A stretch of DNA of 64,000 nt from Bacteroidales bacterium (GTDB lineage: Bacteria > Bacteroidota > Bacteroidia > Bacteroidales > UBA932): positions 1 to 64,000 of the forward strand of contig JAFRUH010000011.1 of the NCBI GenBank assembly GCA_017438975.1, written 5' to 3'. How positions within the stretch are numbered: the stretch's first letter is position 1; every line of letters begins with the position of its first letter. The translations under genes were made by a program, and so were the position numbers. Of the stretch, positions 20,728 to 38,324 are shown piece after piece. The notes under the pieces are model-generated. The model was not told the origin of the DNA. It did no database searches and saw only the letters and a list, made by a program, of their open reading frames with translations.

Positions 20728-21350
20728 GGCCTGAATTCCTGGCGGTTGACGATCGAGCGGCCGAGCGTCAGGCTGTCGGCGTACTCGAGGTCGTCCCCGA
20801 AACCGAGTCCCCGGGCGAGGGAGGAGATCCGCACCCCCGAGGAAGCGATCTGCCGGTAGATGTAAAAGGCGGTCGTCTCCCCTTCCACATCTCCGCTGAG
20901 CGCAAGGATGACCTCGGCCCCGGAAGGGTCCGGGAGGGAAGAGATCCGTTCCGTCAGCTCCCGGATCGTCAGGTCGGAGGGGCCGATGCCGTTGATGGGC
21001 GAAATGATGCCGCCGAGAACGTGGTACAGTCCGTGATACTGGCCGGTATTCTCGATGCTCATGACGTCCCGGACGCTCTCCACGACGCAGATCTGCGCCC
21101 GGTTCCTCGAACGGTCCGAGCAGATGGAGCATTCCTCCTCGTCGGATATCATCCGGCAGACCCGGCAGTAACGGACGTCGTCCCGGAGGGTGTCGATCGC
21201 CCGGGTGAAGTGGTGGACATTTTCCGCCGGCTGCTTCAGGAGATGGAGGGCAAGACGGAGGGCGCTCCTTCTCCCGACGCCCGGGAGGGAGCTGATCGCA
21301 TCGACCGCATCCTCGAGGATACGGGAGGGATACTGGCCGTAGTCCGCCAT
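20724..21350 (-). CDS. recR: Recombination mediator RecR
   Basis: RecFOR-pathway protein that loads RecA at gaps, 208 residues. It has a helix-hairpin-helix (LPGVGRRSALRLALHLL), a four-Cys zinc finger (CRVC...CSIC, about residues 62-77) and a Toprim domain with a GDVEGETTAFYI segment. It is one-base overlapped by the murQ stop (TGATG) and itself overlaps mntP. A repair gene inside a cell-wall salvage operon is probably only convenience of transcription. Confidence 0.95.
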
Positions 21351-22171
21351 CAGGCCTGCTCGGAAAGGTCGTTCCTGTACGCGGTCACGGCCGCACGGAC
21401 CTGTCCGTATTTCAGGAGGAGATCCCGGGCCATATCGTAATCGGCGATGCCCGTTTCGTCCATGATCATCCGGGTTCCCCGGTCGACCAGTTTGCTGTTG
21501 GACAGTTGCATGTCGACCATCTTGTTGCCGCGGACGTGGCCGAGACGGATCATGCAGGCGGTCGAAATCATGTTCAGGACCAGTTTCTCGGCGGTACCCG
21601 CTTTCATCCTGGTACTTCCCGTCACGAATTCAGGGCCCGTGACGACTTCGACCGGGATTTCCGTCGCTTCCGCGAGGGGACTGCCGGCGTTGCAGGTGAT
21701 GCATCCGGTCAGGAGTCCCCGGGAACGGGCTTCCCGGATTGCACCGATAACATAGGGTGTCGTACCGGAGGCCGCGATCCCGATGACGGTATCGTCCGGA
21801 TTCGCCTCGAAAGCCATGATGTCCTTCCATCCCTGGAGCGGATCGTCTTCCACGTTTTCGGCAGCCGTCCGGATGGCGGAATCACCGCCGGCCATCAGTC
21901 CGATGAAGGCATTGTAGACACCGTAGGTCGGAGGGATCTCGGACGCGTCGACGATGCCCAGGCGTCCGCTGGTCCCGGCGCCGATGTAGAAGACCCGGCC
22001 TCCGCGGCCCATCCTTTCAACGATGCCTTCCACCAGCTTTTCGATGTTGGGAAGTGCTTCGGCGACGGCGACGGGGACGGTACGGTCTTCCTGATTGATG
22101 CCCCGGAGGATTTCCAGGGTCGACATTTTGTCGAGGTTGTTGTAACGGGAGGATTGTTCAGTCGTTCTCAT
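21350..22171 (-). CDS. murQ: N-acetylmuramic acid 6-phosphate etherase
   Basis: Cleaves the lactyl ether of MurNAc-6-P to give GlcNAc-6-P and D-lactate, a cytoplasmic step of muropeptide recycling; 273 residues. The SIS sugar-phosphate fold is clear: FYIGAGTSGRLGIVDASE, GIAASGTTPYVIGA, and the family signature GPEFVTGSTRMKAGTAEKLV. The catalytic Glu is expected in the DASEIPPTYG loop. It overlaps the upstream kinase gene by ATGA, so substrate phosphorylation and ether cleavage are coupled. Confidence 0.96.
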   Translation of the reverse strand: MRTTEQSSRYNNLDKMSTLEILRGINQEDRTVPVAVAEALPNIEKLVEGIVERMGRGGRVFYIGAGTSGRLGIVDASEIPPTYGVYNAFIGLMAGGDSAIRTAAENVEDDPLQGWKDIMAFEANPDDTVIGIAASGTTPYVIGAIREARSRGLLTGCITCNAGSPLAEATEIPVEVVTGPEFVTGSTRMKAGTAEKLVLNMISTACMIRLGHVRGNKMVDMQLSNSKLVDRGTRMIMDETGIADYDMARDLLLKYGQVRAAVTAYRNDLSEQA

Positions 22172-23019
22172 GATTGATGATATTCTATGAGTCCTTCAAA
22201 AGGCGAAGGCATGATTCTGGAGAATGTCACGCCGTTGACCGCTCCGACTTTGCGGAGGATATCCCGGCAGGCGTAGCCGAAGCCGCCGACGATTCCGACC
22301 TGGTAACGGTCGATATCGTATTGCTTGAGCGACCGGTCGATGTAAGCCTTGAAATTGTTTTCCACCAGACGGGTCACATACTCGTCCTTACCGTAGAAAC
22401 TGAGGATATAGGGTGCGAACTGGCCGAGATACCCGGAAGGAGCGTTCCCGCGGTATACATTCTTTACGATCGTCGGATAATCGGCCTGATAGCGAGAGGC
22501 GAAATCCTTCGCGATATACTCCGGCATCTGGTTTTTGAGGAAATCAGCGACAAACAGTTTCCCGAGGACGGCGCCGCCGCCTTCGTCACCGAGGATGAAA
22601 CCCCCGCTGCTGATATTCTTGACGATCTTCTCCCCGTCGTAGAAACAGCTGTTCGAACCGGTGCCGAGGATTCCCGCGATGCCGGGTCCATGGCCGCAGA
22701 CGGCCCTCGCGGCGCCCAGGAGGTCGGATGCGAACTCCCTGGGAACGCCGGGGAACATCTCTTCGAACCTCCAGTCCAGACCCTTTGCTTCTTCCGGGAC
22801 TCCGCTGCCGCGGGAAACGATGCCGGCGGCATAGAAATGGATGGCCTCGAGGTTCTCCGGTTCCAGGGCAGCTACCGCCTCGTCCACGATAGGACGGATC
22901 GCGTCCATCGACATGGTCGCCAGGTTGATTCCGGCGGTCTTGACTCTTTTCTCAGACCCGTCAGGGCCTTTGGCGCACCAGTCGGTCTTGGTCGCGCCGC
23001 TCTCGATGATGATTTTCAT
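22168..23019 (-). CDS. BadF/BadG-family amino sugar kinase, probable MurNAc/GlcNAc kinase
   Basis: 283 residues of the ASKHA (BadF/BadG/BcrA) sugar-kinase fold. The N-terminal phosphate loop is IIESGATKTDW, the second phosphate site is GILGTGSNSCFYDG, followed by GGFILGDEGGGAVLGK, and the adenosine loop GIVGGFGYA lies near the end. Its ATGA overlap with murQ makes MurNAc the likely substrate, as for the MurK kinases of Clostridium and Tannerella; this is inference from context. GlcNAc is the main alternative. Its own start shares a base with the stop of the SGNH gene. Confidence 0.85.
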   Translation of the reverse strand: MKIIIESGATKTDWCAKGPDGSEKRVKTAGINLATMSMDAIRPIVDEAVAALEPENLEAIHFYAAGIVSRGSGVPEEAKGLDWRFEEMFPGVPREFASDLLGAARAVCGHGPGIAGILGTGSNSCFYDGEKIVKNISSGGFILGDEGGGAVLGKLFVADFLKNQMPEYIAKDFASRYQADYPTIVKNVYRGNAPSGYLGQFAPYILSFYGKDEYVTRLVENNFKAYIDRSLKQYDIDRYQVGIVGGFGYACRDILRKVGAVNGVTFSRIMPSPFEGLIEYHQS

Positions 23020-28666: not shown

Positions 28667-29428
28667 ATGATAGGTATTTTCGACTCCGGCTCCGGCGGAA
28701 TGTCCGTCTTCAGGGAAATCGTCCGTCTGCTTCCCGAGGAAAAGTATGTCTATTTCTCGGACAATGCCCACTGTCCCTACGGGGAGAAGACGGCCGGATA
28801 TATCCAGGACCGCGCCAGGGCCATCACCACGACGCTGCTCGGGAAGGGATGCGGAATCATCGTCGTCGCCTGCAATACCGCGACGGCGGCGGCCATCCGC
28901 ACCCTCCGGACGGAGTTCCCCGACACTCCTTTCATCGGGATGGAACCGGCTGTCAAGCCGGCCGCTCTCGGAACGAAGACCGGGGTCATCGGCGTCCTGG
29001 CGACCGCAGGGACCCTCAAGGGATCGAAATACCTCAAGACGCGCGGAATCTACGAGGATGAAGTCCGGATCGTCGAGCATGTCGGCGAAGGCTTCGTGGA
29101 ACTCGTCGAGCGCGGGATCTTCACCGGTCCGGAAGCCGAAGAGACCGTCCGCAGGAGCCTCCGGCCCCTGTTGGACGAGGGAGCGGACACGATCGTTCTC
29201 GGGTGCACCCACTATCCTTTCCTCAGGGATACGATCCAGGCCATCGCCGGGCCGGATATCCGGATCATCGATCCCGCCCCCGCCGTCGCCCGCCAGACGC
29301 TGAGGGTCATGTCCGAAAAGGGCCTTTGCGACCCCTCCGGCTACGGAATCGAAATCCTCTCTTCCGGCGACCCGGCCTCCGTCCTGCAGATCTATTCGAT
29401 GGTCCGGCCGGACCAGGAAAAGGAATAA
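28667..29428 (+). CDS. murI: Glutamate racemase
   Basis: Supplies D-glutamate for peptidoglycan, 253 residues. Both catalytic cysteines are present in their family contexts, VVACNTATAAAI (about residue 68) and VLGCTHYPFL (about residue 184). The N-terminus is IGIFDSGSGGMSVF. It follows the BtuG-like gene by 10 bases and ends at a bidirectional hairpin terminator. The link to corrinoid uptake is probably only operon convenience. Confidence 0.96.
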   Translation: MIGIFDSGSGGMSVFREIVRLLPEEKYVYFSDNAHCPYGEKTAGYIQDRARAITTTLLGKGCGIIVVACNTATAAAIRTLRTEFPDTPFIGMEPAVKPAALGTKTGVIGVLATAGTLKGSKYLKTRGIYEDEVRIVEHVGEGFVELVERGIFTGPEAEETVRRSLRPLLDEGADTIVLGCTHYPFLRDTIQAIAGPDIRIIDPAPAVARQTLRVMSEKGLCDPSGYGIEILSSGDPASVLQIYSMVRPDQEKE

Positions 29429-29476: not shown

Positions 29477-31072
29477 TTACCGGTAAGGATTGTATTTGTT
29501 GTACAGGTCGCCGTACATCTGTCCGAGAACCTCAAGATAAGGCTGCGACTCGAAAAGCATCGTACGATAGACCGTGTTGTCTACCAGGTAGTACTCGACT
29601 CCGTTCATCACGATCGTCTCGTAATCTTCCGGGAGCGAAGTCACAAGGGCTCCGGCCGGAGGGATGATTACGGTATACTGACCGTTCTGCTCGATGTAGA
29701 ACACACCGTCCTGATAGAAGTAATTGGAGTTGGCGTACGCGTAGCTCTGGACCAGTCCGAGATTGTTGGCAATCTCGTAGGCGGACAGGGCCCGGGTGGA
29801 GTTCAGCGCATAGCTGGCATTCTGCCTGGCAATGGCTGCGTTGTTCTGGGCAATGATCCGGTTCTGAGCCGCTATCGTCTCATAATTGTCGAATACCGTC
29901 CGATAGGTCCAGTAATCCGAGCAATAGTAGGAGAAGCGTACGGAGTTGAAGATTGCCCTGTCGATCGCCCTGTCGATGATCGTCCCGAAAGGAGGACGGC
30001 ATACGACATAGACATTGCCGAAGAGTCTGTAGTAGATTCCATTGTAGAGGTAGTAATCGATACCCCAGTGGTGGATCCTGCGGTAGCGCGGAGGAATGTA
30101 ATTCACCCGGAAACCGTAGTAGTGAGGATGATCTGCGAAGAAGTGGTAAGGCCTGTCATAGGAGAGGAAGCCTCTCGAACGGGGCGGTACGCGGTGCAGG
30201 TCATGGTGGTCGTCGAGCATGAACTCGTGATCGTTGTAGCGGTAGTTGCCGCCCCGGTCACGATAGTTGTCCATCGGCTGACGCGTATCCGTGTTGTTGG
30301 AAACGGCCCCGCCGGTAAGTCCCTGACGGGTCACGTTGGAATTCTCACGGAGCGTTCCGCCGGAGGAACGGACGGTCGTGCCGGACTGGGTGGCGCGGGA
30401 AACCGTCGAGTTCTGACGGGATCCGGTCGTCGCGGACTGGGTCGCGGTGCCGGTGGCACGGGAGGTGGTTCCGGAAGAACGGACGGTCGTACCGGACTGG
30501 GTAGCACGCGAGGTGCTGCCGGACTGGGTAGCCCTGGAAGTCGATCCGCTCTGACGGGAAGTCGTCGTGCTCTGACGGGTCGTCGAACCCGACTGAGTCG
30601 CCGTTCCGCTCTGGCGCGAAGTCGTTCCGGACTGCGTAGCCCTGGAAGTCGTACCGCTCTGGCGGGAAGTCGTCGTGCTCTGACGGGTCGTAGAACCGGA
30701 CTGGGTCACGGTTCCGCTCTGGCGCGAAGTCGAACCCGACTGGGTGGCGCGGGAGGTGCTGCCGGACTGGGTAGCCCTGGAGGTCGAGCCGCTCTGGCGG
30801 GAAGTCGTCGTGCTCTGGCGGGTCGTGGTCCCCTGTCGGGAATACGACGGAGCGTTATAGGAAACAGACCGGGAAGATGAACCGGAAGAGACCCGGGAGG
30901 TACTTCCGGAAGAACTGCGGACCGAAGTAGAGGTAGAGCCTCTGGACGTCGAAGACGTAGTGGCACGGGAAGATGAAGAGCCGCCTCTTCTCGTCTGCTG
31001 GGCGAGGGCCGAAGGACTGAAGACCAGGGCCGTCGTCATCAGGATCGCTGCAAGTGTAGTAAATCTTCTCAT
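29477..31072 (-). CDS. Secreted DUF6515-type protein with long Ser/Thr/Gln/Arg repeat region
   Basis: 531 residues. A signal peptide (MRRFTTLAAILMTTALVFSPSALA) is followed by about 200 residues built of short units such as SGSTSRATQ, SGTTSRQ and TTRQSTTTSRQ. After a His/Tyr-rich segment (YYGFRVNYIPPRYRRIHHWG) comes a C-terminal domain with repeated YYL/YYR motifs (GVEYYLVDNTVY), which I recognise as DUF6515-like. Function unknown; a surface or wall-associated protein is likely. It lies 18 bases after the NamZ-like gene and ends at a terminator. The repeat region is a candidate for O-glycosylation and for length variation. Confidence 0.75.
   Translation of the reverse strand: MRRFTTLAAILMTTALVFSPSALAQQTRRGGSSSSRATTSSTSRGSTSTSVRSSSGSTSRVSSGSSSRSVSYNAPSYSRQGTTTRQSTTTSRQSGSTSRATQSGSTSRATQSGSTSRQSGTVTQSGSTTRQSTTTSRQSGTTSRATQSGTTSRQSGTATQSGSTTRQSTTTSRQSGSTSRATQSGSTSRATQSGTTVRSSGTTSRATGTATQSATTGSRQNSTVSRATQSGTTVRSSGGTLRENSNVTRQGLTGGAVSNNTDTRQPMDNYRDRGGNYRYNDHEFMLDDHHDLHRVPPRSRGFLSYDRPYHFFADHPHYYGFRVNYIPPRYRRIHHWGIDYYLYNGIYYRLFGNVYVVCRPPFGTIIDRAIDRAIFNSVRFSYYCSDYWTYRTVFDNYETIAAQNRIIAQNNAAIARQNASYALNSTRALSAYEIANNLGLVQSYAYANSNYFYQDGVFYIEQNGQYTVIIPPAGALVTSLPEDYETIVMNGVEYYLVDNTVYRTMLFESQPYLEVLGQMYGDLYNKYNPYR
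30355..30840. repeat. Degenerate tandem repeats encoding the Ser/Thr/Gln/Arg region
   Basis: Units of about 18-36 bases (for example CGGACTGGGTAGCCCTGGA and CTCTGGCGGGAAGTCGTC variants) recur many times in frame within the DUF6515 gene. All visible unit changes keep the reading frame, so copy number would change protein length, not cause frameshifts. Confidence 0.75.
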
Positions 31073-31090: not shown

Positions 31091-32332
31091 TTATTCGTAT
31101 AGGTAGTATTTTCTGGAAAGTTTCTTGAAAGTCTCGACATCTTTTTCCCAGTAGGATCGGATGTCTTCGACTTTCAACCGCTTCCCGAAATTCTCTCTTA
31201 CATAATCCGTACCACAAACGATATCGAACATCCGCAAACGTCCTGCTTCGGTAAAAGGATTGCGGTCCGGATAGAGTTCTCCGATCGCCTGCATGACGTA
31301 GAACTGGGTCAGCGTAAGGGAGGCGGCCTCGTAATCGGTATAAAAATACTGTACGCCGTTCAGGTCTTTTCCGGACAGGCCGCCGAAGAACGGCTTGTAA
31401 TGGATCGTGCGGAAAGCGATCCCCGGAAGATGGTAACTGTCCAGCTTCGCCTTGAGAAGATCGGCGTCGATCCACTCCGCCCCGAAGACCTGGAACGGGA
31501 GGGTGTACCCCACCCCGATGTTCAGGTAATTCTGGAACTCTCCGGCGATGCCGGCGGTCGGGTATCCGATGGCGGCGTCAGGGGACGGGATCTGCGGGGA
31601 AGGCAGGATCCAGGGAAGCCGGGTATCCACATAGGTCATTTCCCGTTTCCATCCTTTCATGGGCACGACGGTGAGCTTGCAGACGAGGGGCTTCTCATCG
31701 CCCTTCTCGCCGCAGTTCAGGCCCTCTTCGTTGATCAGAATCGCAAGTTCCCCGACGGTGAGCCCGTAGACATAGGGGATCTTGAACTCGCTCACGAACG
31801 AATGGAATCCCGGTTCCGTGCAGCAGCCTTCCACCTTCCTGCCGCCGAGGGGGTTCGGACGGTCGAGGACGACCACCTCGATCCCCTGCTCCGCACAGGC
31901 CCTCATCACGAGCCCGAGGGTGCTGATGAACGTATAGGAACGGGCCCCTACGTCCTGGATGTCATAGACCATGACGTCGACGCCCTTGAGCATCTCCGGA
32001 GACGGTTTCCGGAACTTTCCGTAGATCGAATAGACCGGAAGCCCGGTCGTGGGATCGGTGTAATCGCTCACCTTTCCTCCTGCATAGACATCCCCCCGGA
32101 CGCCGTGCTCGGGTCCGTACAGCGTCACGAGATTCACTTCAGGCGCCTCGAAGAGGATATCGATGGTCGAGCGGAGATGGCTGTCCACCCCGCTGGGATT
32201 GGTTACAAGACCGACTCTCTTTCCCTTGAGGCAGTCGAATCCGCGTTCGCGGAGCACTTCGATGCCGGGTTTGACCTGGGCCGAAAGGCTGAGAGACAGG
32301 AAAAGGGCCCCCAGCAGGAGTTTGAATTTCAT
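31091..32332 (-). CDS. namZ: NamZ-like exo-beta-N-acetylmuramidase (DUF1343, GH171)
   Basis: 413 residues with a signal peptide (MKFKLLLGALFLSLSLSAQ). The mature protein shows the DUF1343 pattern: RVGLVTNPSGVD, LYGPEHGVRGD, YDIQDVGARSYTFISTLG, VVLDRPNPLGG and SPQIPSPDAAIGYPTAG. The family founder, B. subtilis NamZ, releases MurNAc from the non-reducing ends of glycan chains. The ATG at 32332 is preferred over an upstream in-frame start because it begins the signal peptide. It follows an AmpG-like permease by 10 bases, which fits liberation and uptake of cell-wall sugars. The exact substrate is inferred. Confidence 0.88.
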   Translation of the reverse strand: MKFKLLLGALFLSLSLSAQVKPGIEVLRERGFDCLKGKRVGLVTNPSGVDSHLRSTIDILFEAPEVNLVTLYGPEHGVRGDVYAGGKVSDYTDPTTGLPVYSIYGKFRKPSPEMLKGVDVMVYDIQDVGARSYTFISTLGLVMRACAEQGIEVVVLDRPNPLGGRKVEGCCTEPGFHSFVSEFKIPYVYGLTVGELAILINEEGLNCGEKGDEKPLVCKLTVVPMKGWKREMTYVDTRLPWILPSPQIPSPDAAIGYPTAGIAGEFQNYLNIGVGYTLPFQVFGAEWIDADLLKAKLDSYHLPGIAFRTIHYKPFFGGLSGKDLNGVQYFYTDYEAASLTLTQFYVMQAIGELYPDRNPFTEAGRLRMFDIVCGTDYVRENFGKRLKVEDIRSYWEKDVETFKKLSRKYYLYE

Positions 32333-32342
32333 GGTACCGAGA

Positions 32343-33656
32343 TTATTTCTTTCCATATTCCGAGTTGATTTTTCTTCTGACCAGGATGGTCACGGCAAGG
32401 GTCGCGAAACAGCAGAGCATCACCATCCAGAAGAAATTGAGATAGCCGATGGACTCCTGGATGAACCCGGCGACGAATCCGGGGAGCATCATGCTGAGCG
32501 CCATGAAAGCCGTGCAGATGGCATAATGCGAGGTCTTGAACTCCCCGTCCGAGAAATACATCATATAGAGCGTATATGCCGTGAAGCCGAACCCGTAGCC
32601 GAACTGCTCGATCGCGATCGCGACGGCAATGACGACGAGGTTCGTCGGCTGGGCGGCGGCCAGGTAGACGAATGTCAGGCAGGGAAGGGTCATTCCGGCG
32701 GCCATCCACCAGAGCGCCTTCTTGAGGCCGACCCTCGAAGCGAAAATCCCGCCCAGGATACCGCCTGCGAGGAGGGCGATCACCCCGATCGTCCCGTAGA
32801 CGATGCCGACGGAATCCGTGCTGAGGCCGAGGCCGCCGTTCGCGACCTTGTCCACGAGGAAGGGCTGGCACAGCTTGATCAGGAAGCCTTCCGGAAGGCG
32901 GTACAGGAGCATGAACGCGATTGCGAGGAGGATCCCCGGCTTCGTGAAGAAGGTCTTGAACGAATTCCCCAGTTCGGAGAGGGTCGACGTCCCGTTTTCA
33001 CCGGTCACCCTGGGATGGTCCTCCGCACTGCGCGGAAGCATGAAGGTATGGTAGAGGGTGACGAGGAAGAAGATGACCGCGGCCACTGCGAGGGTCACCT
33101 GCCAGGACCAGGGAATGTTGCCCGAACTCCGCTCCACGCGGCCGGCGATGAACACAAGCACGCCCTGGCCGAAAACGGAGGAGATCCGGTAGAAGGTATT
33201 CCGGATTCCGATGAAGGCCGCCTGGCTGCTAGTGTCCTGCGCGAGCATATAGAACCCGTCCGCCGCAATGTCGTGCGTCGCGGAGGCGAAAGCCGCGATG
33301 ATGAACAGGACCAGCGTAAACCAGAAGATGCCAATCCCCGTGTTCCCGGAGGCGATGAGGTCCGGAGAGGGCTTCGGCAGCGTAAGGGTCAGGAGAATCA
33401 TCAGGGCCGTCAGGAGGGCCTGCATGGTGATGATCCACCACCGTTTCGTCTTGACGACATCTACGATCGGGCTCCAGAGTCCCTTGAGGAACCAGGGGAA
33501 ATAGAGGAGGGTCGTGAAGAAGGACATCTGCCCGTTCGGGACGCCCATCTTCGCAAACATCAGCACGGAGATGTTGTTGACGATGAAATAGGGAATTCCT
33601 TCCGCGAAGTAAAGCGTAGGAATCCAAAACCAGGGTGAGCTTTTTGTCTTATTCAT
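32343..33656 (-). CDS. AmpG-like major facilitator permease, probable muropeptide importer
   Basis: Inner-membrane MFS transporter, 437 residues, with about twelve hydrophobic segments. AmpG-type features are YFAEGIPYFIVNNISVL at the first helix, PWFLKGLWSPIVD in the first loop and ASATHDIAADGF in the fifth helix region. AmpG imports GlcNAc-anhMurNAc peptides in Gram-negatives. The gene overlaps the SpoIID-fusion gene by ATGA and precedes namZ, which supports a cell-wall fragment as the cargo. Family members with other cargos exist, so the substrate stays an inference. Confidence 0.85.
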   Translation of the reverse strand: MNKTKSSPWFWIPTLYFAEGIPYFIVNNISVLMFAKMGVPNGQMSFFTTLLYFPWFLKGLWSPIVDVVKTKRWWIITMQALLTALMILLTLTLPKPSPDLIASGNTGIGIFWFTLVLFIIAAFASATHDIAADGFYMLAQDTSSQAAFIGIRNTFYRISSVFGQGVLVFIAGRVERSSGNIPWSWQVTLAVAAVIFFLVTLYHTFMLPRSAEDHPRVTGENGTSTLSELGNSFKTFFTKPGILLAIAFMLLYRLPEGFLIKLCQPFLVDKVANGGLGLSTDSVGIVYGTIGVIALLAGGILGGIFASRVGLKKALWWMAAGMTLPCLTFVYLAAAQPTNLVVIAVAIAIEQFGYGFGFTAYTLYMMYFSDGEFKTSHYAICTAFMALSMMLPGFVAGFIQESIGYLNFFWMVMLCCFATLAVTILVRRKINSEYGKK

Positions 33657-36016
33657 GAGAATGGTCTTTCTAGGATTGAGCCCGGATAATAGTGCTGAAG
33701 GATCCGGTCATAGGAATAGCCGCGATAGGCCATCACGGCGGCCCCGATCTGGCAGAGGCCGACGCCGTGGCCCCATCCGGCTCCCGTCAGGATGACCCTG
33801 TCATCCTTGAATTCTACGATGAAAGCGGAGCTGAAAAGGTGAGATTCAGAAAGGAATTTTCTGATAATCAGTTCCTTCCCGACATCCATCGTCTGGTTGG
33901 TCCCGACGATGCGAAGCCGTTTGATCCGTCCCGACGTTCCCCGTTCCAGGGGGATGAGGTCCCGGATCGTCCCGAAATCGATTCCGCTCCGGCGGTGGAC
34001 CAGTTCGGACAGTTCGCCGACACTGTATTCGACCTTCCACCGGAAGAAATCCTTGGTTTCAAGGTCATAATCGTTCAGGACCTGCGACAGGATCGCATGG
34101 TCATGGGTATTGCAGAAGGCGTCGGGGGCGGAAAGGATCCACTCCCGGGCCTGATCTTCGTCGGTCAGGTCGGGGAACTCGTCGACCGGGCCGTCGCGGC
34201 GGGCGGCCAGATAGGGATGAGGGGTATCTTCCCAGCAGGTTCCGAACTCCTCCATCACCCCTCCGCAGCATTTGGAGAAGCGGGCGTCCACGATCTCCCC
34301 TTCGTACATCATGACCTGCCCCCAGGTCTCGTCAATGGCCGTCCGGACGTTCTCTCCGACGGCCCCGGTAAGGCCCTGGTAGCGCTGGCAATGGTCATCC
34401 GCACAGACATCGAAATGCTTGTGGTCGTCGTGGTCGAACCACTTGACCAGCTGCGGAATCCCGTTTTCATCCCCGTCGATGGAAGCACCGGCATGGAACC
34501 GGGCGTCGAGGTCGGTCACGACGGAAGGAAGGTCCGATACCTCCGGCGGCAGCGTACCCGCGGCCCGCTTCCTCCCGGCGATCTGGGACATTACCCAGGA
34601 ACGGGAGATCACCGCATGGGCCTTGAGGAACTCGAGCGTCGCCGAAGCCTTCATCTCCGACGAGATGACGCTGAGCAGATAATCCTCGACCCCGATGATG
34701 TTGACAGCCGTCACCTTGCCGTCTTCGACAATGAATTTCAGGGTTCCGGCAAACTTCTGGTCCTGTTTCCGCTGCCAGTGGAAATCCACACCGATCGTGA
34801 CGCCGTACAGGATGAAGGAAGGCTCGGCGAAGAGGGTCGAAATCGTCATCGCATCGAAAACGAGTTCGTCATAGAGGGCTCCGTTGTAATCGATCTTTCC
34901 CTCCCGGTAGGACACTTTCTGCGGTCCGGCACCGTCCGAAATGATTTCAAAGACGATTTCCTGCCCTGACATGATACCGACCTCCAGCTTCGGCTGCGTG
35001 CGGACCAGGCGCCATATGGTCCTCTCCTCCAGTTCTTTCGAGACGGAAACTTCGGAATAGATCTCCGTCAGCGTGACGGCGTCAAGCCGTTCGAAATCGC
35101 TCTCCCTCGGGGTGATGACATATCCGGCCATCTCGGCGGCACCGGCGCTGATGAGATAGCCATTCCCGCCTTCGTAATAATGGTGGGAGCGCACCTCGTT
35201 GCGGAGCGTCACGATGCAGCGGTACTCCCCTTCCGAGAAATAGGTGAAAGCGTTGAACCGCGGCTCCGTCTCTCCTTCCAGAAAGGGGGCGCAGTCCAGC
35301 AGGCGGTAGAACAGCTTGGCCATCGACTTCGACGTCCGCGCCCTAAGGGCGAAGACCCCGCGGGTGAAATGCTTGTAATGGAAGAGCTGGGCGTCCTGGA
35401 CGGACGTGATGTATTCGATGTCGTCCGCGATGGAATCCGGGACCGAACAGACCTCCGATGCATTGGGGACTCCGGCTTCCGGCTGGGCTTCCGACAGGAT
35501 GCGGAGCAGGCGGTCCACCGCCCTTTCCAGCGGGAGATACCCCTTCGGACAAGCCTGGAAATGGAGATGATAAGGGGCCGAGGCGCCGGCGGACGGGCCG
35601 TTGTACCAGATTACATAGTCATCCAGGTCACGGGCCATGTCCAGCATGTCGACGAAGCGGTGCCAGATCGACTGGGGGACATGATCCTCGCTGGCGAGGA
35701 GGATATGGTTCGGAAAAATGGGGAAATAATTGACCAGGATATCATATTTCCGGCCTTTCCGGCCTTCGAATTTAAGGCCGCGCTGCGCCTCGGGCCGGTT
35801 CTCGGCGCAAAGGAAACAGGAAGCCGGGGCCGGGGGGGCGTCCGCGGTTCCGGCTGTGCAGGACCCATAGCGGAGCGGGTTGTACTGGAGGGTCGTCATC
35901 AGCCCTCCGGAAGGGATCTGGCGGGTCTGGACGGACTTGAGCGCCCGGAAATTCGACGCCGCCTCCGGCCAAACGGAAAGCTGGTCGTGGACGAATTTGT
36001 CTATATCTACTGTCAT
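33653..36016 (-). CDS. Fusion of a GalT/GDP-sugar-phosphorylase-like domain (DUF4922) with a SpoIID domain
   Basis: 787 residues in two parts. Residues 1 to about 300 resemble nucleotide-sugar phosphorylases of the HIT/GalT superfamily: LQYNPLRYGS, FLCAENRPEAQRG, VNYFPIFPNHILLASEDH, and the active-site-like HLHFQ at 150-154. From about 330 on the protein is SpoIID/LytB-like: VEDYLLSVISSEM with the expected catalytic Glu at 454, LKAHAVISRSW, and GAGWGHGVGLCQIGA with YYPGS at the end. SpoIID proteins are lytic transglycosylases, normally secreted. No signal peptide or membrane helix is seen here, so it should be cytoplasmic. It overlaps the AmpG-like gene by 4 bases. I infer a role in processing imported wall fragments; the reaction is unknown. 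Confidence 0.85.
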   Translation of the reverse strand: MTVDIDKFVHDQLSVWPEAASNFRALKSVQTRQIPSGGLMTTLQYNPLRYGSCTAGTADAPPAPASCFLCAENRPEAQRGLKFEGRKGRKYDILVNYFPIFPNHILLASEDHVPQSIWHRFVDMLDMARDLDDYVIWYNGPSAGASAPYHLHFQACPKGYLPLERAVDRLLRILSEAQPEAGVPNASEVCSVPDSIADDIEYITSVQDAQLFHYKHFTRGVFALRARTSKSMAKLFYRLLDCAPFLEGETEPRFNAFTYFSEGEYRCIVTLRNEVRSHHYYEGGNGYLISAGAAEMAGYVITPRESDFERLDAVTLTEIYSEVSVSKELEERTIWRLVRTQPKLEVGIMSGQEIVFEIISDGAGPQKVSYREGKIDYNGALYDELVFDAMTISTLFAEPSFILYGVTIGVDFHWQRKQDQKFAGTLKFIVEDGKVTAVNIIGVEDYLLSVISSEMKASATLEFLKAHAVISRSWVMSQIAGRKRAAGTLPPEVSDLPSVVTDLDARFHAGASIDGDENGIPQLVKWFDHDDHKHFDVCADDHCQRYQGLTGAVGENVRTAIDETWGQVMMYEGEIVDARFSKCCGGVMEEFGTCWEDTPHPYLAARRDGPVDEFPDLTDEDQAREWILSAPDAFCNTHDHAILSQVLNDYDLETKDFFRWKVEYSVGELSELVHRRSGIDFGTIRDLIPLERGTSGRIKRLRIVGTNQTMDVGKELIIRKFLSESHLFSSAFIVEFKDDRVILTGAGWGHGVGLCQIGAAVMAYRGYSYDRILQHYYPGSILERPFS

Positions 36017-36043: not shown

Positions 36044-36634
36044 CTACAGCAACGCCAGAAGCGTGTCTGAAATCTTCCCGAACTCTTCCTCAAAGTTAGG
36101 AGTAAATATGGATTTCTCAAAATTATCTTTGATTTCCGGATAGCTCCACCAACGGCCTTCGCTAACTTCCTCATTACAAGGGTTGATGCTGAAGTTTCCG
36201 ACGGCGGCGAAAACATTGGCGAGTTCCTTCTCGGTCTCGCTTTCGTGGACATAGCTCATCAGGTAGACCGGGTTCATTTCCGTCAGTCCGAGCTCTTCGC
36301 GGGTTTCCCGAAGGAGCGCCTCCAGGATCAGTTCGCCATAGGAGACATGCCCTCCGACGGCCGTGTCCCAGCGTCCCGGATAGAGATCCTTGGAAAGGGA
36401 CCTTTTCTGCACATACAGTTCCCCGTAGCGGTTGATCAAGTGCAGATGGACGACGGGATGGAGGACCTTCGATCCGCCATGGCAGTATTTTCTGGAGGCC
36501 TGGCCGATCACGAGGCCGTTCTCTTCCACGATGGGAAGCATCTCCTCCCCGTCCGACACGACGGGACCGGGAGAGTTGAAATTGGGGAACGGCAGGACGG
36601 GCGCCGGTCCGGAAGGATAGATCAGCTCGAACAT
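36044..36634 (-). CDS. Nudix hydrolase family protein
   Basis: 196 residues, cytoplasmic. The Nudix box is complete: GHVSYGE followed by LILEALL and RETREELGL (about residues 95-117). The N-terminal part HPVVHLHLINRYGELYVQKR and the overall size resemble isopentenyl-diphosphate-isomerase-like Nudix proteins. The ATG at 36634 is preferred over a TTG three codons upstream; it starts one base after the stop of the AspT-like gene. The substrate is unknown. Standing directly before the nucleotidyltransferase-SpoIID fusion, it could clear a nucleotide-sugar product, but that is speculation. Confidence 0.88.
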   Translation of the reverse strand: MFELIYPSGPAPVLPFPNFNSPGPVVSDGEEMLPIVEENGLVIGQASRKYCHGGSKVLHPVVHLHLINRYGELYVQKRSLSKDLYPGRWDTAVGGHVSYGELILEALLRETREELGLTEMNPVYLMSYVHESETEKELANVFAAVGNFSINPCNEEVSEGRWWSYPEIKDNFEKSIFTPNFEEEFGKISDTLLALL

Positions 36635-36635
36635 A

Positions 36636-38324
36636 TCAGGCAAGGGCGATCAGGATCATAACCTGCGCGACCAGGACCCGCATGAACATGGACAGCGGAT
36701 AGACGGTCGCGTAATTGACAGGAACATAATCGGTTCCATATGCCTCCTGTGCGAAGGCGAGGACGGGCGGATTCGTGGAAGAACCGATGACAAGGCCCAT
36801 CAGCTTGTAGAAATTCAACTTGCAGAGGTACCGGCCGACGAGGAACGTAATGACAGGAGGGATCAGGGTAATGGCCGCACCGTAGAGGATCCACCAGTAA
36901 CCGCCTCCGGTCAGGGAGGAGACGAAATCCTGTCCCGCCCCGAGGCCGACCGCCGCCAGGAAGAGCGAAATGCCGATCTCCCGGATCATCAGGTTGGCGC
37001 TCACGGTCGTATAGGTCGTGATCTTGAACTTCGGGCCGAAATGGCCCAGCAGGATGGCGACGATGAGCGGTCCGCCGGCCAGGCCCAGCTTGACGGGTTG
37101 CGGGACGCCGGGAAAACGGATCGGAATGGACCCGAGAAGGACGCCGAGGACGATCCCGAGAAAGATCGGAACCAGATTCGGACGGTTCAGGGCGTCGTTC
37201 GTATTGCCCACATAATCGGCGACCCGGTTGATTCCCTGCTCGGGACCGACGCAGATCAGGCCGTCCCCCATCTGGATGTACAGCCCCGGACGCGCCACCA
37301 GTTCGACGCCGGAGCGGATGATCCGGGTCACGGTGATTCCATAGTCGGAACGGAGCCGGAGGTCCCTCAGTTTCTTTCCGGTCAGCGAGGATTTGGTAAC
37401 CGTCACGCGCTTGACGACCATGTGATGGTCCTTCTCCCGCCATTCGCCGACATGCATCGGAATTTCTTCACCGAACAGGATCCTGGCCTTGTCCACGGCA
37501 TCCTGGGTAATGACCAGGAGGAGTTTATCCCCTTCTTCCAGGACGGTTTCTTTGTCCGGGAAGAGGATCTCGTCGCCTTTCATGATCCGGGAGACGACAA
37601 ACTGCTTCTCGCCGAACTCGTGGAGAACATCCCGGAGTTTCTTTCCGAAGATGGCGGGATTTTCGACCCGGACGTGCATCCGGCGGGCCTGCTCTCCCGT
37701 ATCTTCCTCTTCCAGAAGTTCCTTCTCCTCTTTCTTCAGGTCGACCTTGAAGAGGACTTTGGCGAGCATGACGGCGAGGATCAGTCCGAGGACGCCGAAA
37801 GGATAGGCGACGGCATAACCGCTGGCCATCTGCGCCGTCTGCGCGGCCGCTTCCGGCAGGGACATGCCCGAAGAGAGGCTGAGGTCACTGACCGTCTGCT
37901 GCGCGGCACCCAGTCCGGGCGTATTGGTCACGGCTCCGGACATGACCCCGACCAGGGTCGGAACATCCTCGCCCGAGAGAGCTGCGATGGCATAGGCGAC
38001 CGCCACGGCGAGGAGGATGTTCATCACTGCCAGCAGGTTCATCTTCACGCCCCCGCTCCGGAACGAATGGAAAAAGCCGGGACCGACCTGCAGGCCGATG
38101 GAAAAGACAAAGAGGATCAGGCCGAATTCCTTGACGAAATGGAGTATGCCGGGATCGGGGACAAGGCCGAAATGGCTGACCAGGATTCCGACGAAAAGGA
38201 TCCAGGTCGAGCCGAGGGTCACCCCTTTGAATTTGAATTTCCCCAGATAGAGTCCTGCCCCAATGACAAAGGAAAGGAGCAGGATCGCCTGTGCGGCTAC
38301 CGGTTTGAATAACAGATCATGCAT
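36636..38324 (-). CDS. AspT/YidE-family transporter with two TrkA-C domains
   Basis: 562-residue inner-membrane protein with two blocks of helices, each with the AspT duplication signature. The first is GVMSGAVTNTPGLGAAQ, the second GLVIGSSTNPPVLAFAQ. Between them lie two cytoplasmic TrkA-C regulatory domains (about residues 215-375; FGKKLRDV... and LTGKKLRDL...). Members include the aspartate/alanine exchanger AspT and uncharacterised YidE/YbjL. The substrate is unknown. Three bases separate it from the thioesterase gene upstream. Confidence 0.88.
   Translation of the reverse strand: MHDLLFKPVAAQAILLLSFVIGAGLYLGKFKFKGVTLGSTWILFVGILVSHFGLVPDPGILHFVKEFGLILFVFSIGLQVGPGFFHSFRSGGVKMNLLAVMNILLAVAVAYAIAALSGEDVPTLVGVMSGAVTNTPGLGAAQQTVSDLSLSSGMSLPEAAAQTAQMASGYAVAYPFGVLGLILAVMLAKVLFKVDLKKEEKELLEEEDTGEQARRMHVRVENPAIFGKKLRDVLHEFGEKQFVVSRIMKGDEILFPDKETVLEEGDKLLLVITQDAVDKARILFGEEIPMHVGEWREKDHHMVVKRVTVTKSSLTGKKLRDLRLRSDYGITVTRIIRSGVELVARPGLYIQMGDGLICVGPEQGINRVADYVGNTNDALNRPNLVPIFLGIVLGVLLGSIPIRFPGVPQPVKLGLAGGPLIVAILLGHFGPKFKITTYTTVSANLMIREIGISLFLAAVGLGAGQDFVSSLTGGGYWWILYGAAITLIPPVITFLVGRYLCKLNFYKLMGLVIGSSTNPPVLAFAQEAYGTDYVPVNYATVYPLSMFMRVLVAQVMILIALA

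Follow-up and report, generated by a model that had tools for sequence, protein, structure and literature searches.

The closest described relative of the system reported here is the operon Tanf_08345-08385 of Tannerella forsythia, which is carried on one transcript (PMC5388701, 2017; this and the other papers below are cited from excerpts). Its genes stand in the order gtf, gtf, lytB, ampG, ybbC (encoding NamZ), murT, murK, murQ. In the 2017 report the first three are labelled 'glycosyltransferase', 'glycosyltransferase' and 'amidase enhancer precursor', and by position they are a GT2 glycosyltransferase, a DUF4922 protein and a SpoIID protein. The permease AmpG of T. forsythia imports N-acetylglucosaminyl-1,6-anhydro-N-acetylmuramic acid (GlcNAc-anhMurNAc) and GlcNAc-MurNAc, mainly peptide-free, and growth on GlcNAc-anhMurNAc was reported (PMC7670621). 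The same paper states that 'no AnmK ortholog ... is predicted', and it left the onward route of anhMurNAc to explore. MurK, a second kinase, and a peptidoglycan-scavenging operon between them have also been described (PMC10465942). Functional tests of the second gtf and of lytB were not found in the excerpts of PMC5388701 and PMC7670621. Here we analyse a counterpart in 64,000 nucleotides of a Bacteroidales genome (contig JAFRUH010000011.1, positions 1 to 64,000; hereafter the window), where DUF4922 and SpoIID are fused in a single gene.

SpoIID is known to free GlcNAc-anhMurNAc from denuded glycan, and the Clostridium difficile protein needs E101 and its zinc ligands C140 and H145 in order to be active in vitro (PMC6221140). 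In open-licence papers, SpoIID together with AmpG, AnmK or Bacteroides gave nothing tying them to this module; AnmK with Bacteroides or Bacteroidetes gave only the T. forsythia work and GH3 enzymes, and DUF4922 only plant GGP work, judged by title. We found that the two domains are conserved, signal-less and inherited together, and that in the window's order they are mostly found in genomes without AnmK. We tentatively propose that the fusion could be the cytosolic core of a Bacteroidota module for recycling peptidoglycan sugars (GT2-DUF4922-SpoIID), which would act behind AmpG and stand in for AnmK.

A signal-less fusion of DUF4922 and SpoIID

The fusion gene, P0001, is a single uninterrupted frame of 787 codons, as a preliminary description made from the letters alone had reported; the strand, which that description did not state, is minus. 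Pfam assigned residues 8-156 to DUF4922 (E 3.6e-43) and residues 432-571 to SpoIID (E 1.1e-21; PF08486 at 77.7 against a cut-off of 23), and the NCBIfam SpoIID_LytB domain TIGR02669 matched at 167.7 bits, over its threshold of 83.3. Both halves named in the preliminary description were thus recovered by profile search. An AlphaFold2 model of the protein was confident (predicted local distance difference test, pLDDT, 90.6; predicted template modelling score, pTM, 0.89), and a SpoIID fold and an Apa2/GalT-type fold were found in it for the two halves. The third-position GC level stays at 0.73-0.82 across the joint of the halves, and the fusion reappears as one frame in other genomes; these two observations rule out a frameshift or a mis-joining of two genes, so that the fusion is no artefact. 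That of the fusion is the one SpoIID domain in the source genome, which measures 2.80 Mb in 33 contigs and is 98.5% complete. A scan for promoters and terminators gave matches at no more than chance level.

With the fusion model, Foldseek matched the SpoIID structure 5i1t at TMt 0.76, and E454 aligned with the SEM/GEM-motif Glu of solved SpoIID structures. E454 and the zinc-type ligands H532, C538, H542 and C543, which correspond to H134, C140, H145 and C146 of the C. difficile protein, are identical in 106 of 106 SpoIID rows. The motif S-S-E454-M and the stretch GAGWGHGVGLCQ are present as first described; within GxGHGVG, G749 and H750 are kept in 105 and G751 in 104 of the 106 rows, with one gap. 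The domain shares its fold, catalytic Glu and GxGHGVG with Bacillus and Clostridium SpoIID (5i1t, 4rwr), and its zinc-type ligands with the C. difficile form. It differs from them in being signal-less, in an extra N-terminal part, in being fused to or paired with DUF4922, and in falling below the cut-off of the sporulation SpoIID equivalog TIGR02870 (122.3 against 234.75).

The DUF4922 half matched yeast Apa2 (4i5t; TMt 0.59), ADP-glucose phosphorylase (2h39; 0.43) and GalT (0.34), and carries the previously noted H150-L-H-F-Q154. In the alignment, H150 and H152 are kept in 115 of 115 readable rows and Q154 in 114, while C67, C70, H104 and H112 are kept in all 115; the active-site residues are therefore retained across homologues in both halves. 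The fold is that of GalT, Ap4A phosphorylase and ADP-glucose phosphorylase, to which the HxHxQ motif is presumably also common. The motif and the fold place this half in the GalT-like HIT superfamily, and it may have the nucleotidyl transfer or phosphorolysis activity of that group. Its sequence misses the cut-off of the Pfam profile Ap4A_phos_N (20.9 against 23.1), in which it differs from Ap4A phosphorylase. By analogy with GalT, C67xxC70, H112 and H150 could form a GalT-like zinc site.

The absence of an export signal, reported in the preliminary description, was examined by the N-terminal hydrophobicity peak. Its maximum was 1.5 in the fusions (n = 61) and 1.98 in stand-alone SpoIID proteins (n = 40; 2 at 1.9 or more), far below the level of NamZ proteins (median 2.7, n = 59; 52 at 1.9 or more) in the case of the fusion; five of the 106 SpoIID rows were left out of these figures because of their length (the three triple fusions, a row that is cut and another whose start is long). 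A hidden signal peptide at an upstream start is ruled out, since the open frame continues for no more than 9 codons ahead of the ATG (796 codons against 787). All 11 stand-alone SpoIID proteins of the first set start right at the domain. Two ordinary-type SpoIID proteins of the same order, which are weak matches, both have signal-like starts, the mark of exported SpoIID/LytB proteins that the fusion lacks. As neither stand-alone nor fused forms have a signal-like start, we infer that both would be cytosolic.

The fusion was matched in 32 of 41 genomes comprising the window's own and its relatives. Among the same-genus genomes (own included) 24 of 25 matched. In 19 of them the frame exceeds 650 codons, although one of these has a stop within the aligned region; the remaining 5 matches lie in shorter frames. 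Of at least 568 loci, the survey took the 80 best and so leans to close kin. In named records these 80 comprise 47 DUF4922-SpoIID fusions, 30 loci with SpoIID apart and 3 with GT2, DUF4922 and SpoIID in one frame (L174, L178 and L177, the last ending at a contig edge). GT2-DUF4922 fusions were seen at L126, L138, L172 and partly L169, the GT2 and DUF4922 labels being assigned with separate queries; a model of such a fusion (pLDDT 89.1, pTM 0.70) suggests a polymerase-like GT2 fold. Another, L082:7183-9663, lies outside the 80 loci in genome G270, whose SpoIID is on a different contig. The halves are adjacent genes in Bacteroides, Tannerella and others. In a quick tree built from 106 SpoIID domains, 5 changes are needed to account for fusion, at least 2 of them forced by well-supported branches, with gain and loss indistinguishable; the window's fusion belongs to a clade of 50, every member of which is fused and two records of which are named Candidatus Cryptobacteroides.

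Distribution of DUF4922, AnmK and MurQ

We surveyed 218 genomes of the window's order and a 296-genome sample of the phylum, 293 of which were used for the AnmK comparison outside the order. Signal-less SpoIID was called at a best E below 1e-60 with model A1, which assumes likeness to the proteins whose starts were read. The classes are well apart, the weakest carrier and the strongest other genome standing at 3e-81 and 7e-17 in the order and at 1e-171 and 2e-19 in the phylum sample. In the order, signal-less SpoIID was present in 48 of the 218 genomes, and DUF4922 in 47 of these 48 and in none of the 170 others. The phylum sample gave DUF4922 in 40 of 40 carriers and in 1 of 256 others (G263). 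DUF4922 matches below 30 bits were not counted (G488 in the order; G067, G176 and G200 in the phylum); G488, G067 and G200 pass the Pfam cut-off, and counting the weak matches would make it 1/170 and 4/256. The two proteins are inherited together even when their genes are not adjacent (L076/L077, L089, L091). Signal-less SpoIID and DUF4922 are near-obligate partners. The sole carrier of the order sample without a DUF4922 match is G414, a genome 93% complete.

AnmK was found in 5 of the 48 carriers of the order against 144 of the 170 others (5 genomes with both, 43 with signal-less SpoIID only, 144 with AnmK only, 26 with neither; Fisher 8e-22). Counted by family code (n = 120, a total read from the run of codes), the four classes hold 5, 22, 83 and 10, with AnmK in 5/27 against 83/93 (p 5e-12); both p-values, like the one given below, overstate the contrast because Fisher tests ignore descent. 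Genomes of the order with only weak, ordinary-type SpoIID have AnmK in 73 of 77 cases. Outside the order the contrast was weaker, with AnmK present in 15 of 37 carriers against 191 of 256 others (p 7e-5, by the same test), a weak match in G256 (1e-10) being counted as present. Families f31, f33, f36, f47 and f51 are split for AnmK there, which may mean repeated loss. Within family f121 the contrast fits exclusion: G390 has signal-less SpoIID without AnmK, and G493 AnmK without signal-less SpoIID. The window's own genome, 98.5% complete, gave no AnmK match and has MurQ.

MurQ was present in 26 of the 48 carriers and 21 of the 170 others in the order; a match whose E exceeded 1e-40 was assigned to other SIS-domain proteins, and some of those counted fall short of the curated cut-off. 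MurQ is therefore linked to signal-less SpoIID but not required. Neither AnmK nor MurQ was found in 22 of the 48 carriers, which agrees with the earlier suggestion that the path is not the MurQ route. MurU-like nucleotidyltransferases matched in 80 of 80 genomes scanned, a set made up of all 48 carriers plus 32 of the 144 with AnmK only; no match exceeded the MurU cut-off.

Gene neighbourhood in the window and at other loci

On the minus strand of the window the genes run Nudix, fusion, AmpG-like permease, NamZ (Table 1), the neighbours that the preliminary description had named. The Nudix gene ends 27 bases upstream of the fusion, the AmpG-like gene overlaps the fusion by 4 bases, and NamZ overlaps AmpG by 14; some 8 kb past NamZ come the genes for a MurK-like kinase and MurQ. 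The permease scores 174.9 on the NCBIfam AmpG subfamily, below the cut-off of 350, yet is 48% identical to the experimentally tested AmpG of T. forsythia. The MurK-like kinase has no Pfam match at E 0.01. No GT2 match was found within the 64-kb window, the rest of the genome not being searched for GT2.

Table 1. Features of the module and its surroundings in the window
Feature	Position	Strand	Basis
DUF4922-SpoIID fusion P0001, 787 aa	33653..36016	minus	Pfam, NCBIfam, AlphaFold2 model
DUF4922 domain (GalT/Ap4A-phosphorylase fold); HxHxQ 150-154, C67xxC70, H104, H112	35549..35995	minus	Pfam, genome match coordinates, conservation, Foldseek Apa2 4i5t
SpoIID half with extra N-terminal part; catalytic-type E454; zinc-type ligands H532, C538, H542, C543	33656..35011	minus	Pfam, structure alignment, conservation, Foldseek 5i1t TMt 0.76
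AmpG-like major facilitator superfamily permease, 48% identity to T. forsythia AmpG	32343..33656	minus	Pfam, NCBIfam, alignment
NamZ exo-muramidase, signal-peptide-like start, 60% identity to NamZ of the T. forsythia operon	31091..32356	minus	Pfam, alignment
Nudix protein	36044..36643	minus	Sub-cut-off NCBIfam matches, best IPP isomerase, YfcD
MurK-like kinase, 36% identity to T. forsythia MurK, 39% to second kinase gene upstream	22168..23019	minus	Alignment
MurQ etherase, 61% identity to T. forsythia MurQ	21350..22171	minus	TIGR00274 306.5 bits, cut-off 302

The association with ampG and namZ holds at the surveyed loci. AmpG lies within 300 bases of SpoIID at 65 of 72 loci with at least 1.5 kb downstream, NamZ within 4 kb at 53 of 65 with at least 3.5 kb, and MurQ downstream at 17 of 56 with at least 9 kb. 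At the 64 loci with at least 3 kb upstream, DUF4922 is fused or upstream at 63, GT2 or Nudix occurs at 62, and GT2 is adjacent or fused at 47. In the window's clade Nudix is a frequent upstream neighbour of the fusion, and in part of that clade GT2 is not adjacent, so it may be helpful there and not essential.

Compared with the T. forsythia operon (locus L164, contig NZ_JUET01000082; PMC5388701, PMC7670621), the gene order is the same and the proteins of matching genes are 34-61% identical (52% in the SpoIID half, 34% in the DUF4922 half). The halves are separate there and fused in the window, where murK-murQ stand apart from namZ and GT2 is missing from the 64 kb. The gene linkage itself is already known from the 2017 description of that operon.

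Several further genes were observed near the module. At L085, L089 and L091 (family f51) a GT4-type glycosyltransferase follows SpoIID instead of AmpG, the profile search covering L085 alone. At L078:10389-12182, L080, L081 and L096 the AmpG neighbour has a long mid-protein insert and reaches about 600-635 aa. In the full gene set at L083:13343-17357, L131, L150, L154 and L158 an FAD/Fe-S oxidase and a NagX/HGSNAT-like membrane protein replace MurT between NamZ and MurK; we take the oxidase to be of the D-lactate dehydrogenase type, D-lactate being a product of MurQ. In the window, 29477..31072 (minus), next to NamZ, encodes a protein that looks exported and contains many 'SGSTSRATQ' repeats, near-identical and rich in Ser/Thr/Gln; L062 and L069 likewise have a low-complexity protein of this sort after NamZ. 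Near the recycling genes, 28667..29428 (plus) is, judged by motif, a putative glutamate racemase (MurI)-like gene; look-alikes belong to a family present at 10 of 14 same-genus loci. Upstream of Nudix, 36636..38324 (minus) encodes a 562-aa transporter-like protein, by eye like a family at 4 same-genus loci (e.g. L062:12343-14031).

A possible route for anhydro-muramic acid

The SpoIID product is AmpG cargo and the AnmK substrate is half of it, so a cytosolic SpoIID would meet its own product. Because a cytosolic maker of anhMurNAc should need AnmK, which the order's carriers mostly lack, we read the module as consuming this sugar. AmpG would import peptide-free GlcNAc-anhMurNAc, the normal product of SpoIID, and the cytosolic SpoIID domain would bind it and run the transglycosylase half-reaction backwards. 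Glu454 would protonate the 1,6-anhydro bridge, and the ring would be opened by an acceptor, in the simplest case water, yielding GlcNAc-MurNAc or MurNAc for MurK-MurQ or for a UDP-MurNAc route. The carriers with neither AnmK nor MurQ indicate that the product would not be destined for MurQ alone, and the strict pairing with DUF4922 implies that this path includes a nucleotide step. By analogy with GalT, DUF4922 might handle the sugar-1-phosphate or nucleotide-sugar side through a covalent His-nucleotidyl intermediate. The AnmK route, in which an anhMurNAc kinase is followed by MurQ, has the same proposed input and cellular place; the domains of the fusion and its proposed chemistry are unrelated to it, and the window's genome gave no AnmK match.

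Several points weigh against a stand-in for AnmK. Support for the mechanism is non-biochemical, coming from sequence, model and distribution, and simple ring-opening by SpoIID leaves the obligatory DUF4922 unexplained. AnmK is kept by 15 of 37 carriers outside the order and by 5 within it, and its absence clusters by clade, so that the exclusion, its p-values already overstated, may partly reflect clades. Informative within-family contrasts are few (f78, f117 and f140 are uninformative), and that in f88 is opposite, G357 having both signal-less SpoIID and AnmK and G468 (90% complete) neither. Bacteroides ihuae, included as a control, carries both AnmK and DUF4922 together with a SpoIID match of unassigned type. 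Growth of T. forsythia on free anhMurNAc is restricted, and its optical density reached about 0.8 on GlcNAc-anhMurNAc-peptides against about 1.3 on GlcNAc-MurNAc-peptides (PMC7670621).

The preliminary description proposed a cytoplasmic enzyme that cuts imported glycan and exchanges the product with a nucleotide sugar. Its outline stands: the fusion is signal-less, its sites are conserved, it belongs to a set of muropeptide genes, and it probably serves a route that exists alongside AnmK. The cutting direction is probably wrong. An intact SpoIID active site and the adjoining AmpG and NamZ would suit a lytic transglycosylase that trims longer imported glycan to anhMurNAc, and nucleotide-sugar exchange by DUF4922 is possible, but the scheme as a whole is improbable. 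The main reported cargo of the AmpG orthologue is a mainly peptide-free disaccharide, which holds no internal MurNAc-GlcNAc bond for SpoIID to cleave (PMC7670621), and anhMurNAc would be a dead end since the order's carriers mostly lack AnmK. Export of the fusion by a non-classical path, as an ordinary periplasmic lytic transglycosylase, is highly improbable: lytic transglycosylase activity does occur in T. forsythia extracts (PMC7670621), but no measured stand-alone or fused form has a signal-like start, the SpoIID domain is fused to a nucleotide-using fold, and the two ordinary SpoIID proteins of the order carry signal-like starts.

The obligatory DUF4922 (47/48, 40/40) and the 22 carriers with neither AnmK nor MurQ would be accounted for by an anabolic route, in which phosphate opens the anhydro ring to MurNAc-1-phosphate and DUF4922, whose predicted Apa2/GalT-type fold is consistent with this, makes UDP-MurNAc in GalT fashion. 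We consider this route unlikely. Retention at C1 would give the beta-phosphate and not the alpha-phosphate needed, and no phosphate-using SpoIID is known to us; UDP-MurNAc may also be made already by a separate route, on which the MurU-like matches, none of them over the cut-off, are uninformative. It is quite unlikely that SpoIID-DUF4922 is an ATP-free, energy-conserving salvage by phosphorolysis of GlcNAc-anhMurNAc and nucleotidyl transfer to MurNAc-1-phosphate, giving UDP-MurNAc without AnmK, AmgK, MurU, MurQ or MurA; if true, muramic acid would have a third recycling route, one that is spread through Bacteroidota. A synthetic module, with GT2 and DUF4922 producing or remodelling a glycan that SpoIID binds or trims and the AnmK pattern being a clade effect, seems fairly unlikely. 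The GT2 partner has a predicted fold like the UDP-sugar polymerase K4CP and TarS/TarP and is adjacent or fused at most loci with enough upstream sequence, a GT4-type gene follows SpoIID at L085, L089 and L091, and a link to glycosylation has been ascribed to the T. forsythia operon (PMC5388701). Against this stand the gene set with ampG, namZ, murT, murK and murQ, the upregulation of T. forsythia ampG on peptidoglycan (PMC7670621), and the part of the window's clade where GT2 is not adjacent.

The module is a variation on peptidoglycan recycling rather than a wholly new type of system. How T. forsythia, without AnmK, uses the anhydro-sugar is a published open question (PMC7670621) that is now testable, since the gene pattern points to two proteins, SpoIID and DUF4922, and predicts where to find them. 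If the module does consume anhMurNAc in place of AnmK, two genes of the published operon, 'glycosyltransferase' and 'amidase enhancer', would be re-annotated, and an enzyme family known for cutting the cell wall outside the cytoplasm would have been turned round inside it. Many Bacteroidales would then use a recycling step that is absent from the standard schemes.

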